Assembly: GCF_014696355.1 (NCBI RefSeq)
Contig: NZ_JACJQA010000037.1
Span: 1 to 48,898 of the forward strand
Direction: 5' to 3'
Length of the DNA stretch: 48,898 nucleotides
From: Pseudanabaena sp. FACHB-1998
GTDB taxonomy: Bacteria > Cyanobacteriota > Cyanobacteriia > Pseudanabaenales > Pseudanabaenaceae
Shown: positions 25,641 through 30,075 of the stretch, piece after piece
Layout of the letters: every line of letters begins with the position of its first letter
Position numbering within the stretch: position 1 is the stretch's first letter
Made by a program: the position numbers and the translations under genes
Notes under the pieces: generated by a model
What the model was told of the DNA's origin: nothing
What the model saw: only the letters and a program-made list of their open reading frames with translations
Database searches by the model: none

Positions 25641-25856
25641 ATGGCTTTTGAGCAAATTGAAGCATTTTTAAAGAAAATGCAGTCTGAACCTGAACTTAAA
25701 AACGAAGTACTAGCAGCATCAACCGCAGATGATGTTGCGCGAATAGCCCTAAAGCTTGGTTTTGAATTTTCAGGTGATGAATTATTGAGAATGTCAGGCA
25801 AAAAAGTTGGCAAGATTACTGTTAGAAAAACTGATATTCCCGGAGAGTACAACTAA
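25641..25856 (+). CDS. Nif11-family leader-like protein
   Basis: A 71-residue protein with the Nif11 pattern: MAFEQIEAFLKKMQSEPELK at the start, then VLAASTADDVARIALKLG and FEFSGDELL, ending KTDIPGEYN. Nif11-type domains serve as leader peptides of several cyanobacterial RiPPs (nitrile-hydratase/Nif11 families), but many stand alone. Here no Gly-Gly cut site or Cys/Ser/Thr-rich core follows the helix, and no lanthipeptide synthetase, ABC peptidase or other maturase is near, so it is probably a stand-alone form. It lies immediately outside the integrated element, with its own terminator. Confidence 0.8.
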   Translation: MAFEQIEAFLKKMQSEPELKNEVLAASTADDVARIALKLGFEFSGDELLRMSGKKVGKITVRKTDIPGEYN

Positions 25857-26006: not shown

Positions 26007-26200
26007 AATCTAACCATGATTTAAATAAGTCTAGTATTGGGTCTAATATCTAGTCTTGAATTCTTAAAATAAGGCTTATAATAAATTGTTAAATTCTGGT
26101 TTTAGAGTTTTTATTCGGATGGCGCGATCGCTTTATGGAAAATATTCAAAGTTAAGTGAAATTTGTTAAGGTAAATAGGAACTATTTGCAAGTAGTGTTA

Positions 26201-27205
26201 ATGGATCGGCAACGTAGAAAAATATTAGAGCTGGGGCTTGGTGGCATTGGTTTAATTGGTGGGGCGATCGCTTGTAGTCCAATCGGTTCAAATCGCAACA
26301 ACGAGAATAATCAGCCTACGCCTAAAAAGGTTGTGATTCCGCCAATGTCGCTCAGTGAGGCGGCTCAGACCAGAATTAAAACCAGTGGACTCGATCCGAT
26401 CGCCGCGTTACGAGAGTTTGATTATGGCAAAGTTAGTCAAGAAAATGGGCGTACAGTACGCGAATTTGAACTAACGGCAAGAAGTAAAACAGTTAAATTA
26501 AATGCTTCGACGGACTTTATTACTTGGAACGTGAATGATCGCGTCCCAGGTCCCACCTTAAGGGCGACAGAAGGCGATCGCATTAGGATTGCTTTTGCTA
26601 ATCGGGGGGGACATGCCCACTCGTTGCATTTTCACGGTGAACACGCTTCAGCGATGGATGGAGTCACTCCGATTCGTAATGGTGCAGCCACGATTTATGA
26701 ATTTGATGCTCTGCCCTACGGTGTGCATTTATATCATTGTCATGTCGCACCTGTGGCACGACATATTGGTAAGGGACTGTACGGAATGTTCATTATTGAT
26801 CCGCCAACGCCACGACCTCCTGCGGATGAAATGGTGCTAATCATGGGCGGCTATGACATTGATGGGGATGGACGCAATGAAATGTATGCTTTTAATGGTT
26901 TGCCGCATTTCTATATGCAGCAACCGATCGCAGTACAGCAAAATCAGTTATTGCGTTTATATGTCCTTAATATGATTGAGTTTGACCCTGTGGCGACCTT
27001 TCATGTCCATGCCAATATGTTTCAGGTTTATCGCACAGGGCGGGGTATGACTCCCACAGAGGAGACAGATGTAATCACGATGGGGACAGCGGAGAGGCAT
27101 ATTTTAGAGTTGCAATATCGCTTTACGGGCAAATATATGTTTCATCCGCACCAAGATGCGATCGCCGAAGCAGGCTGTATGGGCTTATTTGATGTCGTCG
27201 CATAG
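26201..27205 (+). CDS. Two-domain multicopper oxidase (probable ferroxidase), exported
   Basis: A 334-residue oxidase; the ATG at 26201 is used rather than a GTG at 26156. The N-terminus QRRKILELGLGGIGLIGGAI has a twin-arginine-like pair plus a hydrophobic stretch, and AIAC could be a lipobox, so it is probably exported. Copper ligands are clear: HSLHFHG, HLYHCH, HVHAN and MFHPHQDAIAEAGCMG, supplying the trinuclear and type 1 sites. Such enzymes oxidise substrates with reduction of oxygen to water. Linkage to FTR1 two genes on suggests that it oxidises Fe(II) for uptake, as Fet3 does for yeast Ftr1. Confidence 0.85.
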   Translation: MDRQRRKILELGLGGIGLIGGAIACSPIGSNRNNENNQPTPKKVVIPPMSLSEAAQTRIKTSGLDPIAALREFDYGKVSQENGRTVREFELTARSKTVKLNASTDFITWNVNDRVPGPTLRATEGDRIRIAFANRGGHAHSLHFHGEHASAMDGVTPIRNGAATIYEFDALPYGVHLYHCHVAPVARHIGKGLYGMFIIDPPTPRPPADEMVLIMGGYDIDGDGRNEMYAFNGLPHFYMQQPIAVQQNQLLRLYVLNMIEFDPVATFHVHANMFQVYRTGRGMTPTEETDVITMGTAERHILELQYRFTGKYMFHPHQDAIAEAGCMGLFDVVA

Positions 27206-27245
27206 TGTTGTAAATGTTTTGCCTGTAGGCAAAACATTTACAACA
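27206..27245. repeat. Perfect 18-bp-arm palindrome after the oxidase gene
   Basis: TGTTGTAAATGTTTTGCC and its complement around TGTA, starting right after the stop codon. It could slow transcription or protect the 3' end of the oxidase mRNA ahead of the lipoprotein gene. Confidence 0.8.
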
Positions 27246-27353
27246 AATATTTATTGAGAATTACTTGCAAGATTATGTTCTAATAGAATTAAATTAGTTA
27301 TTGAAAATAACTTGCATTACTTACAATCTATTATTTATTTTTTATTCACTTTC

Positions 27354-28457
27354 ATGCCCGCAATTATCTCTTTCCTCAACCAAATACTTAAAAATCCTCT
27401 CCAAAATCTAGCCAAAAGCAAAACATTCTTGATGCTTTTTACTCTTTCCTTGGTTAGCGCGATCGCGATCTCTGCTTGCAATAACACCCCATCACAAAGC
27501 ACTAGCCCTAATTCTCCTGTCAGCAGTGCGACCATTTCTAAGACTGAGTCTACAAGTGAGTCTCAGAAGGACGGCATGAACGGAATGAGTGGTCATTCTA
27601 AGAACAAAATTAATATCAACGAAGCGATCTTGTCAGAGCTAGATAAGGTGGAAGGTAAGTTAGGAATTGCAGGATTATCTAACAAGATTCAGGCGGCGCG
27701 TCCCTATACCAAGGTGGAAGACTTAGTTACAAAGAAGGTAGTCACGGCGGATCAGTTTGCTCAAATCAAAGAGATGGTTAGCACGGAAACTGTGGTGCTA
27801 ACGGGTGAAGCCAGAGATGTTGACTATTTGACTAAACTTGGTTTGATGAAAGGTCACATGATTGTTGCGAAGGAATTACTGGACGCTCAGAAACCTGATC
27901 AAGCGCTTCCCCATATCGAGCATCCTGTCGAAGAAATTTATGCGGATGTGGAAGGTCAACTCAAAGACCGCAAGGTCAAGGAATTTAAACAGTCTTTGAT
28001 GGATTTGCAGCAGTTGGTCAAGTCCAAGCCCAATGATCCTAGTATTGCCGCTAAATATAATGACGCAATGGCGAGTATCGATGGCGCGATCGCTGCCATT
28101 CCCGAAACCCAACGTCAATCACCGAAGTTTGCCTTGCAAGTGATTAATACGATTCTCGATACGGCGGGTACAGAATATCGGGCGGCGATCGCCAATGACA
28201 AGATCAAAGAAATCATCGAGTATCAAGATTCGCGAGGTTTCACCATTTATGTAGAGCAGTTGTACAAGAGCATCGCACCCGCGATGGAAAAGGAACATCC
28301 CGATGTTCATAAACAATTTACGGCAAGTTTAGAAAAACTCAAGTCGGCATATCCCACGGCGATCGCCCCCGAAAAACCAGTGTTGTCCGTTGCGGCGATG
28401 GCTGAATTAATTAAGGGCAACGAGCAAGCCGCTGCCAAAGTTTACGCAAAATCGTAG
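27354..28457 (+). CDS. Exported lipoprotein with helix-hairpin-helix domain, iron-uptake locus
   Basis: A 367-residue protein; the ATG at 27354 is preferred to a TTG at 27312. A hydrophobic segment ends in the lipobox AIAISAC, so it is likely lipid-anchored. After a Ser/Thr linker comes a ComEA-type HHH motif (NINEAILSELDKVEGKLGIA, ARPYTKVEDLV), then ~230 residues of helices. The helical part has the position and character of the EfeO/imelysin partner of iron permeases, though the GxHxxE signature of imelysins is not seen. The place between a multicopper oxidase and FTR1 makes an iron-binding or complex-bridging role likely. Confidence 0.6.
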   Translation: MPAIISFLNQILKNPLQNLAKSKTFLMLFTLSLVSAIAISACNNTPSQSTSPNSPVSSATISKTESTSESQKDGMNGMSGHSKNKININEAILSELDKVEGKLGIAGLSNKIQAARPYTKVEDLVTKKVVTADQFAQIKEMVSTETVVLTGEARDVDYLTKLGLMKGHMIVAKELLDAQKPDQALPHIEHPVEEIYADVEGQLKDRKVKEFKQSLMDLQQLVKSKPNDPSIAAKYNDAMASIDGAIAAIPETQRQSPKFALQVINTILDTAGTEYRAAIANDKIKEIIEYQDSRGFTIYVEQLYKSIAPAMEKEHPDVHKQFTASLEKLKSAYPTAIAPEKPVLSVAAMAELIKGNEQAAAKVYAKS

Positions 28458-28650
28458 ATCCCCCCCATCCCCCCTTAAAAAGGCATTAACATACTTGATG
28501 CACCCCTCATCCCCCAACCCCTCATCCCGCAGGAGAATGGGAGAAATATTAAATTTCTTGTTCCCCTCTCCTGCGGGAGAGGGGTGAGGGCTTAGCGCTT
28601 TGGTGTGTCAAGTATATGAACGCCCTTTTTAAGGGGGATTGAGGGGGATC
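28457..28650. repeat. ~194-bp fold-back (MITE-like) element
   Basis: Ends beginning GATCCCCCC and ending GGGGGATC pair over ~50 bp with few mismatches (CCCCCTTAAAAAGG against CCTTTTTAAGGGGG, TACTTGA against TCAAGTA). Inside, a second hairpin pairs CCCGCAGGAG with CTCCTGCGGG. It fills the gap between the lipoprotein and FTR1 genes and begins at the lipoprotein stop codon. It has no coding capacity. It may reduce FTR1 expression from the upstream promoter or provide a new one. Confidence 0.8.
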
Positions 28651-28711
28651 ATAAGAATCTAACAACGTAGATTTTCCCTTCCAAAATTAGAAAACTTGAT
28701 CTCAAAACTTT

Positions 28712-29626
28712 ATGGACATCAGTTTAACTCTCCCAACTTTTGTAATTACCCTGCGCGAAGGTGTTGAAGCGGCATTGGTAATTGGCATCGTCATGGCATA
28801 TCTCAAACGTGCAAAGCGATCGCATTTGAATAAATGGGTATTTGCAGGGATTGGGACGGGACTCGTAATTAGTGCGATCGTGGGGCTTCTCTTTAATTGG
28901 TTTATGCAAACTGTCGGTACAAGCAACCCTGAACTATCGGCAGTATTTGAGCCATTACTCGAAGGTTTATTTAGTATGGCGGCGATCGCCATGCTGACAT
29001 GGATGTTGATCTGGATGACTAAACAAAGTCGCGCCATGAAGGGGGAAATCGAAGGTTCTTTAAATAATGTGTTGGGTAAAGGCAAAAAAACAGGGTTAGG
29101 AATTTTTGGACTAATCTTATTTGCGATTTTGCGCGAGGGTTTTGAAGTCGTTTTATTTATTTCCGCAAAATTTCAAGAAGGTTTAATGCCAGCCATCGGC
29201 GCTATTAGTGGCATTGGTGCAGCGACTGTAATTGCGATCGCCCTATTCAAATTTGGCATCCAAATTAATATCCGCGCCTTCTTCAAAATTATGGGCTTCA
29301 TGCTCCTATCGATTGTCTCTGGGCTAGTAATTTCGGCACTCGGACATTTCGATACAGCTTTACGGATTCTTTCACAGAGCGATCGCAAATCTGAGTCCAT
29401 CTGCTTCTTTTATGAGCATTTTGCCCGCGAGCATTCCTGCGTCCTCGGCAATATGGTTTGGAACACCAGCAAAGTATTACCCGCCGAAAAATTTCCGGGG
29501 GTAATTTTTAGTTCGCTATTTGGCTATACCGACAAGCTGTATTTAGTACAGGCGATCGCCTACGTTGCCTTTTTTGCGATCGTTGGCACGATCTATTACC
29601 GCAGTTTAGGCAAACGCCTAGCGTAA
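28712..29626 (+). CDS. High-affinity iron permease, FTR1/EfeU family
   Basis: A 304-residue membrane protein with about seven helices. Both family signatures are present: REGVEAALVIGIV in helix 1 and REGFEVVLFI in the fourth helix, with the REGxE acids that bind ferric iron during transport. FTR1 normally works with a ferroxidase, and a multicopper oxidase lies 1.5 kb upstream on the same strand. The C-terminal loop carries an unusual Cys pair (ESICFFYEHFAREHSCVLG) on the predicted outside. Ends with a strong terminator. Confidence 0.9.
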   Translation: MDISLTLPTFVITLREGVEAALVIGIVMAYLKRAKRSHLNKWVFAGIGTGLVISAIVGLLFNWFMQTVGTSNPELSAVFEPLLEGLFSMAAIAMLTWMLIWMTKQSRAMKGEIEGSLNNVLGKGKKTGLGIFGLILFAILREGFEVVLFISAKFQEGLMPAIGAISGIGAATVIAIALFKFGIQINIRAFFKIMGFMLLSIVSGLVISALGHFDTALRILSQSDRKSESICFFYEHFAREHSCVLGNMVWNTSKVLPAEKFPGVIFSSLFGYTDKLYLVQAIAYVAFFAIVGTIYYRSLGKRLA

Positions 29627-29745: not shown

Positions 29746-30075
29746 ATGACTACTATCCGTAAAGTAACAGGCGATCCTAATGAATTCTGGAGTGAACTAG
29801 GTTGGAGCGATCTGACTAGTGCCGAACAAGAACTCTGGACACAACTAGGCTGGAATGAAGAAAATTGGGATGATGAACTAGATTTTCCTGAATGGGATGA
29901 CTTATCTAGTGAAGACCAAAAACTTTGGGGAGTATTAGGTTGGACACAATCTAGATGGGAAGGCGAAGATGACATTCCTGAATCAGCAGAAAAATCTTGG
30001 GAAGAGCTAACCAGTGAAGAACAAGCTGCGGCAACTGACCTTGGTTATACCCAAGATAAATGGGATAACGAATAA
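29746..30075 (+). CDS. Acidic W/LGW tandem-repeat protein
   Basis: A 109-residue, very acidic protein made of four imperfect ~22-residue repeats. Examples are WSDLTSAEQELWTQLGWNEE, WDDLSSEDQKLWGVLGWTQS and WEELTSEEQAAATDLGYTQD. Each has W-x-x-L-(T/S)-x-x-(E/D)-Q, then LGW or LGY, then a closing W. Similar repeats occur singly in cyanobacterial and algal proteins of unknown role and probably form helix pairs packed by the Trp residues. It stands alone with its own hairpin. Function unknown; protein binding is the reasonable guess. Confidence 0.7.
   Translation: MTTIRKVTGDPNEFWSELGWSDLTSAEQELWTQLGWNEENWDDELDFPEWDDLSSEDQKLWGVLGWTQSRWEGEDDIPESAEKSWEELTSEEQAAATDLGYTQDKWDNE

Follow-up and report, generated by a model that had tools for sequence, protein, structure and literature searches.

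A candidate ferroxidase-coupled FTR1 iron importer with a helix–hairpin–helix lipoprotein in Pseudanabaena and other cyanobacteria

The stretch of DNA analysed here (the window) is contig NZ_JACJQA010000037.1 of Pseudanabaena sp. FACHB-1998 (assembly GCF_014696355.1; 48,898 nucleotides, forward strand), part of a genome of 4.78 Mb that is 99.93% complete. It carries three consecutive genes on the + strand: a multicopper oxidase (26201–27205), a lipoprotein in which a helix–hairpin–helix (HHH) module is joined to a helical domain (27354, or 27432, to 28457) and an FTR1 permease (28712–29626). This trio is a real, conserved module, and several families of cyanobacteria share its gene order, beyond chance. 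The HHH is a companion of FTR1, and it is this FTR1-linked HHH that constitutes the new element. We estimate at roughly two in three the probability that the whole is a ferroxidase-coupled FTR1 iron importer with an EfeO-like carrier, a hybrid of Fet3–Ftr1 and EfeUO, as its sequences suggest. The delivery of iron to bacterial FTR1 permeases is an unsettled question, and the pattern of linkage and fusion names a specific adaptor module and a specific oxidase, yielding a three-part importer that can be put to the test in a group of ecological importance. An earlier note on this DNA had listed the oxidase, the HHH and helical lipoprotein, FTR1 and a fold-back element, and every one of these parts was recovered at the locus from open reading frames (ORFs), Pfam and repeat analysis.

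Linkage of the HHH module to FTR1

Two sets of genomes were compared: 58 genomes (the window's own with 57 relatives), of which 26 have a lipoprotein match of some kind, and 194 genomes sampled across the class (own genome included), of which 73 match the lipoprotein profile when HHH-only and weak matches are counted. The nearest named relatives of the lipoprotein are from Pseudanabaena and one Phormidium tenue. Linkage counts cover the 194-genome sample, eight further fused matches from the phylum sample being kept outside the FTR1 count, and the genes around full and HHH-less forms alike were judged by BLAST with the window proteins. Removal of duplicate named copies left 62 lipoprotein rows, 45 with the HHH and 17 without; the fragments L136 and L141 were dropped (L numbers denote loci and G numbers genomes), and no lipoprotein row was scored for L137 (G166), which has only a remnant near FTR1.

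An FTR1 gene lies within 1 kb downstream of 44 of the 45 lipoproteins with HHH and helical domain, the exception being L115, where the contig ends after 760 bp and these hold a ferritin gene. None of the 17 HHH-less lipoproteins has FTR1 within this distance (L121 has one 2 kb on). A same-strand oxidase is present within 3 kb upstream of 42/45 HHH forms and 15/17 HHH-less forms; in L094, L096 and L116 the oxidase is elsewhere in the genome.

Small stand-alone lipoproteins with an HHH of this sequence type lie next to FTR1 in all 12 loci examined (L028–L032, L165 and L171–L176; a weak match in G032 stands outside this count), with the HHH 3′ of FTR1 in L165, and the FTR1 genes that they adjoin belong to another lineage than that of the operon. 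A class-wide search with the FTR1-type HHH returned 54 places at E ≤ 1.3e-23, followed by a gap to 2.4e-15; these comprise 45 fused and nine stand-alone modules, and FTR1 adjoins 53 of them, the remaining one being at a contig end. Eleven of the weaker HHH matches were read (L163, L164, L166–L170 and L177–L180) and none has FTR1 in the fetched stretch; the stretches fetched for L181 and L182 hold neither HHH nor FTR1. Conversely, no HHH neighbour at E ≤ 0.1 was found at any of 61 FTR1 loci picked, non-randomly and among the matches listed, from outside the cluster, the second FTR1 gene of the window's genome being one of these.

In a quick, unrooted FTR1 tree with long-branch warnings, 42 operon-labelled rows (including L137 with its remnant) require three changes and fall within a supported cluster of 47. 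Eleven of the 12 FTR1s paired with a stand-alone HHH group separately, the twelfth (L165) lies away from them, and HHH partners occur on at least two FTR1 lineages in this tree. On the lipoprotein tree the HHH and FTR1 each require four changes, those of the HHH including at least two on supported branches. The FTR1 proteins of L183 and L184 are only about 29% identical to that of the window, sit on a very long branch and were possibly acquired from another phylum.

The three proteins

The oxidase (ATG at 26201, stop at 27205, + strand) comprises 334 amino acids and has a twin-arginine-type motif at its N-terminus (MDRQRRKILELGLGG). Pfam matches to Cu-oxidase_3 (2.7e-21) and Cu-oxidase_2 (4.5e-24) delineate two cupredoxin domains, and the closest solved structures are 3GDC (1.1e-89) and then 7RAB (9.6e-75). 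All 11 copper ligands are present and are identical in 63/63 aligned oxidase rows, window included; with roles assigned from motifs, H140, C180 and H188 of domain 1 are the type 1 (T1) ligands, and H143, H145, H179, H181, H268, H270, H315 and H317 are the trinuclear ligands. Domain 2 has HPH, not HCH, and is therefore without a second T1 site. With two cupredoxin domains, T1 in domain 1 only and eight trinuclear His, the oxidase is, as judged from its sequence, a type-C two-domain multicopper oxidase in the scheme for such enzymes (PMC13151041; PMC sources are cited from excerpts throughout). The three cupredoxin domains of a Fet3-type ferroxidase were not found in this 334-residue protein with its two Cu-oxidase domains, and the 'yeast-like' character claimed in the earlier note holds as an analogy only, the enzyme being a two-domain type-C oxidase near 3GDC. 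Five residues past H188 sits L193, at what we take to be the position of the axial Met of copper nitrite reductases; a non-binding axial Leu is presumably also present in Fet3p. We infer that the enzyme may oxidize Fe(II), which makes it a putative ferroxidase. The former reading of the locus as a ferroxidase–permease pair gains from the conserved gene order and the complete copper-ligand set, the ferroxidase role itself remaining a prediction.

The lipoprotein gene (27354–28457, with an alternative start at 27432; + strand) encodes a signal with lipobox, a linker, the HHH and the helical domain. Translation from ATG 27432 gives 341 residues, and the start at 27354, as in relatives, gives 367; residues are numbered from ATG 27432. 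A lipobox-like ISAC can be read from the sequence. Structure prediction, which the earlier note had called for, gave an AlphaFold model in which a low-confidence linker is followed by a compact HHH and the helical domain (mean predicted local distance difference test, pLDDT, 84.6; residues 6–56 below 50). A profile search of solved structures with the whole lipoprotein found no relative (best E 0.43).

The HHH module (27597–27785, + strand) is ComEA/PsbU-like and lacks G-h-G hairpins. HHH_3 (PF12836) is matched at E ≤ 0.1 by 26 of 28 aligned lipoprotein members, and the window protein lies at the threshold, with 26.5 bits in its longer and 27.2 in its shorter reading versus a cut-off of 27. 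Superposition of the lipoprotein model on the ComEA-related structure 2duy (Z 9.1, root-mean-square deviation, rmsd, 2.5, 63 residues) identifies a ComEA-type HHH fold, and Foldseek matches PsbU with a probability of 0.90–0.95 but an E-value of 1.6–2.3. Among the NCBIfam models, PsbU is matched at E ≤ 0.1 by 15/28 members and comE by 6/28, the window protein being far under both cut-offs.

The helical domain (27801–28454, + strand), with ten helices, probably in two bundles, is proposed to be an EfeO/M75-like iron-binding domain. M139, H142, H161, H164, E168, Y170, R180, E248, Y249, E263, Y264 and D266 are invariant in a 54-row alignment. Modelled alone, the domain has a mean pLDDT of 97 and a predicted TM-score (pTM) of 0.93. 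Among 350,542 chains, Foldseek ranks EfeM and two EfeO chains 1–3 with a probability of 0.85 and weak E-values (0.22–0.45; TMq 0.42–0.46, rmsd 9.8–11.2), and the EfeO-like Algp7 appears at ranks 5 and 8. VIA-align of the whole-lipoprotein model contains a row for EfeO (Z 7.3, rmsd 2.4, 100 residues); with the helical-domain model it returns generic bundles, with no EfeO among the best 50 rows listed, which is not read as absence. The M75 profile is matched at E ≤ 0.1 by 4/28 lipoprotein members (best 0.0018, under the curated cut-off) and is not listed for the window protein. A 76-row helical alignment was compared by hhalign with six full-length cyanobacterial rows of EfeO type (P 0.0028, probability 11%), with ten imelysin-type rows (P 0.041) and with both sets together (P 0.0021); against the EfeO-type domain region alone (six rows) P was 0.081, with 10/200 column shuffles scoring equally high, and for the first-bundle part it was 0.048, with 4/200 shuffles as high. 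The lipoprotein profile found none of 20 M75-locus proteins, and a profile search of solved structures with the helical domain returned mainly designed helical repeats (best 1.8e-7), a result read as compositional. Because the E-values are weak, the VIA-align bundles generic and the profile comparison not significant, the modelled domain is called EfeO-like, not M75. The metal sites proposed for EfeM map to conserved acidic and HxxE residues (PMC9174327), and a by-eye hand alignment of the acidic helix of EfeM with the HxxHPxEE of the helical domain provides a lead only. Many HHH-less proteins have (GGE)n or His-rich stretches where the HHH would be, and similar (GGE)n leaders occur on HHH-less lipoproteins and several cyanobacterial M75 proteins (L123–L135, L147–L151).

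FTR1 (28712–29626, + strand; 304 residues) matches PF03239 at 4.3e-50, with 171 bits versus a cut-off of 25.3, over positions 2–282 of 284, and TIGR00145 at 1.3e-62, under that model's cut-off. It has two RExxE motifs, REGVE15 and REGFE141 (residues 15 and 141). The full-length PF03239 match, these motifs and the tree identify it by sequence as a member of the FTR1 (OFeT) family, a family of import permeases in which iron transport is based on RExxE.

Proposed mechanism and alternatives

In the proposed importer, the exported two-domain copper oxidase would turn Fe(II) to Fe(III) in the periplasm, and the helical domain of the membrane-anchored lipoprotein would hold Fe(III) by means of its invariant His/Glu/Asp/Tyr set. 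The degenerate HHH, given its linkage to FTR1, would dock the lipoprotein onto the permease, and FTR1 would move iron inward via its two RExxE motifs; where the HHH is absent, the oxidase–lipoprotein pair has other neighbours. More broadly, and tentatively at close to even odds, the degenerate exported HHH could be a dedicated FTR1 docking adaptor in cyanobacteria, serving two or more FTR1 lineages, either in the form of a small separate lipoprotein or fused to an EfeO-like iron carrier. The fusion would couple a copper ferroxidase to the permease; the HHH would then be an Ftr1 accessory subunit not described before, and the importer a Fet3/EfeO hybrid. The role of FTR1 companion explains an exported HHH without DNA.

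The neighbours of the HHH-less forms include a homologue of PKHD-type 2-oxoglutarate-Fe(II) oxygenases within 202 bp after the lipoprotein in 5/17 loci (L123, L124, L125, L127 and L133) and a homologue of SLH-OprB porins within 174 bp after it in 3/17 (L132, L134 and L135), as well as in L048, outside the sample; the domains were scanned in L124, L133, L134 and L135. In L134 (6612–8207) and L135 (6611–8215), smaller genomes of one family, the porin gene follows the lipoprotein by at most 10 bp. Such a position hints at a route across the outer membrane, and three HHH-type loci also have porin homologues on the opposite strand, 1.6–1.8 kb upstream. Ferritin-family genes recur as well. In family f32, the interval between lipoprotein and FTR1 is occupied in five loci (L098, L100, L102, L111 and L114) by a 144-residue gene, in which Pfam identifies a ferritin domain for L098 (1.6e-19), the other copies being 87–90% identical; in L115 and L046 this gene comes after the lipoprotein, and two ferritin genes are near L133. 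By sequence, a ferritin-like gene of the 144-residue type is also the upstream (5′) neighbour of FTR1, without HHH or oxidase, in 8/61 of the outside-cluster loci (L186, L203, L204, L209, L214, L215, L217 and L225).

Several observations weigh against the proposed importer. Because the ferritin gene also adjoins FTR1 outside the cluster, it marks FTR1 as iron-related and says little on the oxidase. At 15/17 HHH-less loci the oxidase is kept without FTR1 within 1 kb; the role of the oxidase–lipoprotein pair may therefore extend beyond iron import, which need not be its sole function. The cluster of 47 that holds the operon FTR1s also contains five FTR1s without an HHH, and the HHH and FTR1 change jointly just 2 to 4 times, the independent pairs being concordant and too few for a test. 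The Foldseek E-values of 0.2–0.5 for EfeM and EfeO are weak, and sequence homology to M75 found no significant support in hhalign and the column shuffles.

These points bear unequally on the alternatives. That the linkage of HHH to FTR1 reflects shared ancestry of the cluster, with no physical docking, is unlikely but deserves serious weight, and it is compatible with iron uptake: the coupled changes on the lipoprotein tree are few, and on an unrooted FTR1 tree the HHH and FTR1 could have duplicated as one unit. Against it, the HHH occurs separate or fused, 5′ of FTR1 and once 3′ of it (L165), its FTR1 partners belong to different lineages, and precisely the loci without an adjacent FTR1 lack the module. 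It is improbable that the oxidase acts instead on copper or organic substrates, in copper tolerance or phenol oxidation, with FTR1 as a mere neighbour. Some two-domain oxidases are indeed laccases (PMC13151041), and in NCBIfam the oxidase comes closest to models named for nitrite reductase and copper resistance, every one of them far under cut-off; the HHH-less loci with oxidase and without nearby FTR1 fit this view too, whereas the HHH-type loci, with FTR1 adjoining 44/45 and the oxidase 42/45, speak for iron.

A role in iron detoxification or storage, in which oxidase and lipoprotein clear periplasmic Fe(II) in iron excess and ferritin stores it, would account for the ferritin genes within the cluster in family f32 and near L133 and for pairs without nearby FTR1. 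We consider it distinctly improbable, since FTR1 belongs to an import permease family and the PKHD-type genes beside the HHH-less forms resemble PiuC, which we take to be an iron-uptake factor. Least of all do we expect the HHH to bind DNA, the lipoprotein catching environmental DNA (as the earlier note had suggested) or DNA-bound metal. The HHH_3 match and the ComEA-related fold would favour this; however, the G-[ILMV]-G motif of the ComEA G-h-G DNA-binding hairpins is absent from the window HHH. It is found in 0/12 stand-alone FTR1-linked HHH proteins and in 2/44 fused ones, both times only in the linker, the window lipoprotein being a 45th fused member likewise without it, whereas 10/11 unlinked HHH proteins retain it. 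Both unlinked proteins scanned match PF00633 besides PF12836 (3e-16 and 5e-15), in contrast to four stand-alone FTR1-linked proteins scanned, with PF12836 at 28–30 bits and no PF00633 at E ≤ 0.01; nor is PF00633 among the 25 families listed, out of 26, for the 28 lipoprotein members. PsbU, an exported protein that shares the fold by Foldseek, is presumably no DNA receptor. DNA capture was rejected on the missing hairpin and the linkage to FTR1, and the FTR1-linked HHH is, by its sequence features, a DNA-binding-like fold but not a typical DNA binder.

Flanking elements and relation to known systems

The spacer between lipoprotein and FTR1 holds, as the earlier note had it, a 194-bp nested fold-back repeat (28457–28650). 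Its 27-nucleotide arms (28457–28483 and 28624–28650) are 89% complementary, and an inner repeat spans about element positions 48–147. The genome contains 56 matching pieces, the element included, most of which cover only the inner part or one arm; the element thus has the inverted terminal arms and dispersed copies, mostly partial, of a fold-back or miniature inverted-repeat transposable element. The term 'invading' fits the dispersal of these pieces, but no gene is disrupted, and the spacers of nine relatives contain other hairpins or almost nothing and are too divergent to define an empty site or target-site duplication. The fold-back belongs to the common interspersed repeats and lies in a variable spacer; no function is implied.

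Directly 5′ of the oxidase start codon lies a conserved leader, TAAATAGGAACTATTTGCAAGTAG (26172–26195, + strand), which is alignable, with variants, in 13/13 genus loci compared, even where the sequence farther upstream has diverged; the block contains AAATAG-GAA-CTATTT in many, not all, of them. It may act as an operator, a promoter or part of the 5′ untranslated region. A shared regulon operator was rejected, the search of the window's genome having found a single copy at up to three mismatches. Farther upstream, between inverted repeats, is an ORF for a Nif11-type leader peptide (25641–25856, + strand); among the neighbourhood loci compared, an identical ORF stands upstream of the oxidase in L051 (G002) only, and the peptide was dropped as a part of the module. 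An acidic, Trp-rich ORF of 109 residues (29746–30075, + strand), which has LGW-type repeats and matches no Pfam family significantly, is conserved 3′ of FTR1 in several Pseudanabaena loci (e.g. L035–L038, L044, L049 and L053).

In open-licence PMC full text, which gives weak evidence of novelty, no HHH protein described with FTR1 and no description of the oxidase–HHH lipoprotein–FTR1 set in cyanobacteria were found; the one paper retrieved for an HHH protein with FTR1, PMC8756737, proved unrelated. PMC7676907, PMC3475125, PMC4777378 and PMC9747964 were consulted as well, and the literature consulted mentions a cyanobacterial FTR1 (cFTR1). PsbU and ComEA share the HHH fold and export with the module and have other partner genes, and the unlinked HHH proteins differ in keeping the G-h-G hairpin motif. 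The cyanobacterial cFTR1 slr0964 of Synechocystis, which PMC11221513 lists among the targets of the iron regulator IutR1, is of the same FTR1 family. Unlike the operon FTR1s, the 61 outside-cluster loci have no HHH neighbour, slr0964 itself being off the tree. FTR1 also works with periplasmic partners in FtrABCD, P19-cFtr1 and FetMP, whereas its partners here are a two-domain oxidase and an HHH lipoprotein. These three systems are named among FTR1-containing ones in PMC9174327.

EfeUOB, EfeUOB-M and FepABC likewise have an exported helical protein beside a permease of the FTR1 family (EfeU), and the fold search with the helical domain is headed by EfeM and EfeO, at weak E-values. Searches of the window's genome gave no M75 match and no PF04261 (Dyp_perox_N, the only DyP family searched) at E ≤ 0.001, by which it lacks the known system's EfeO and EfeB, and membership of EfeUOB was rejected. 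EfeO has a cupredoxin domain of its own (PMC3143127). The lipoprotein carries the HHH in its place, a copper oxidase is present, and the sequence relation to M75 is not significant. Yeast Fet3p–Ftr1p resembles the module in the pairing of a multicopper oxidase with FTR1 and presumably in the T1 axial Leu (L193 here); it differs in that the yeast oxidase has three domains where the present one is a two-domain type-C enzyme, and in that a third protein, the HHH and helical lipoprotein, stands here between oxidase and permease.

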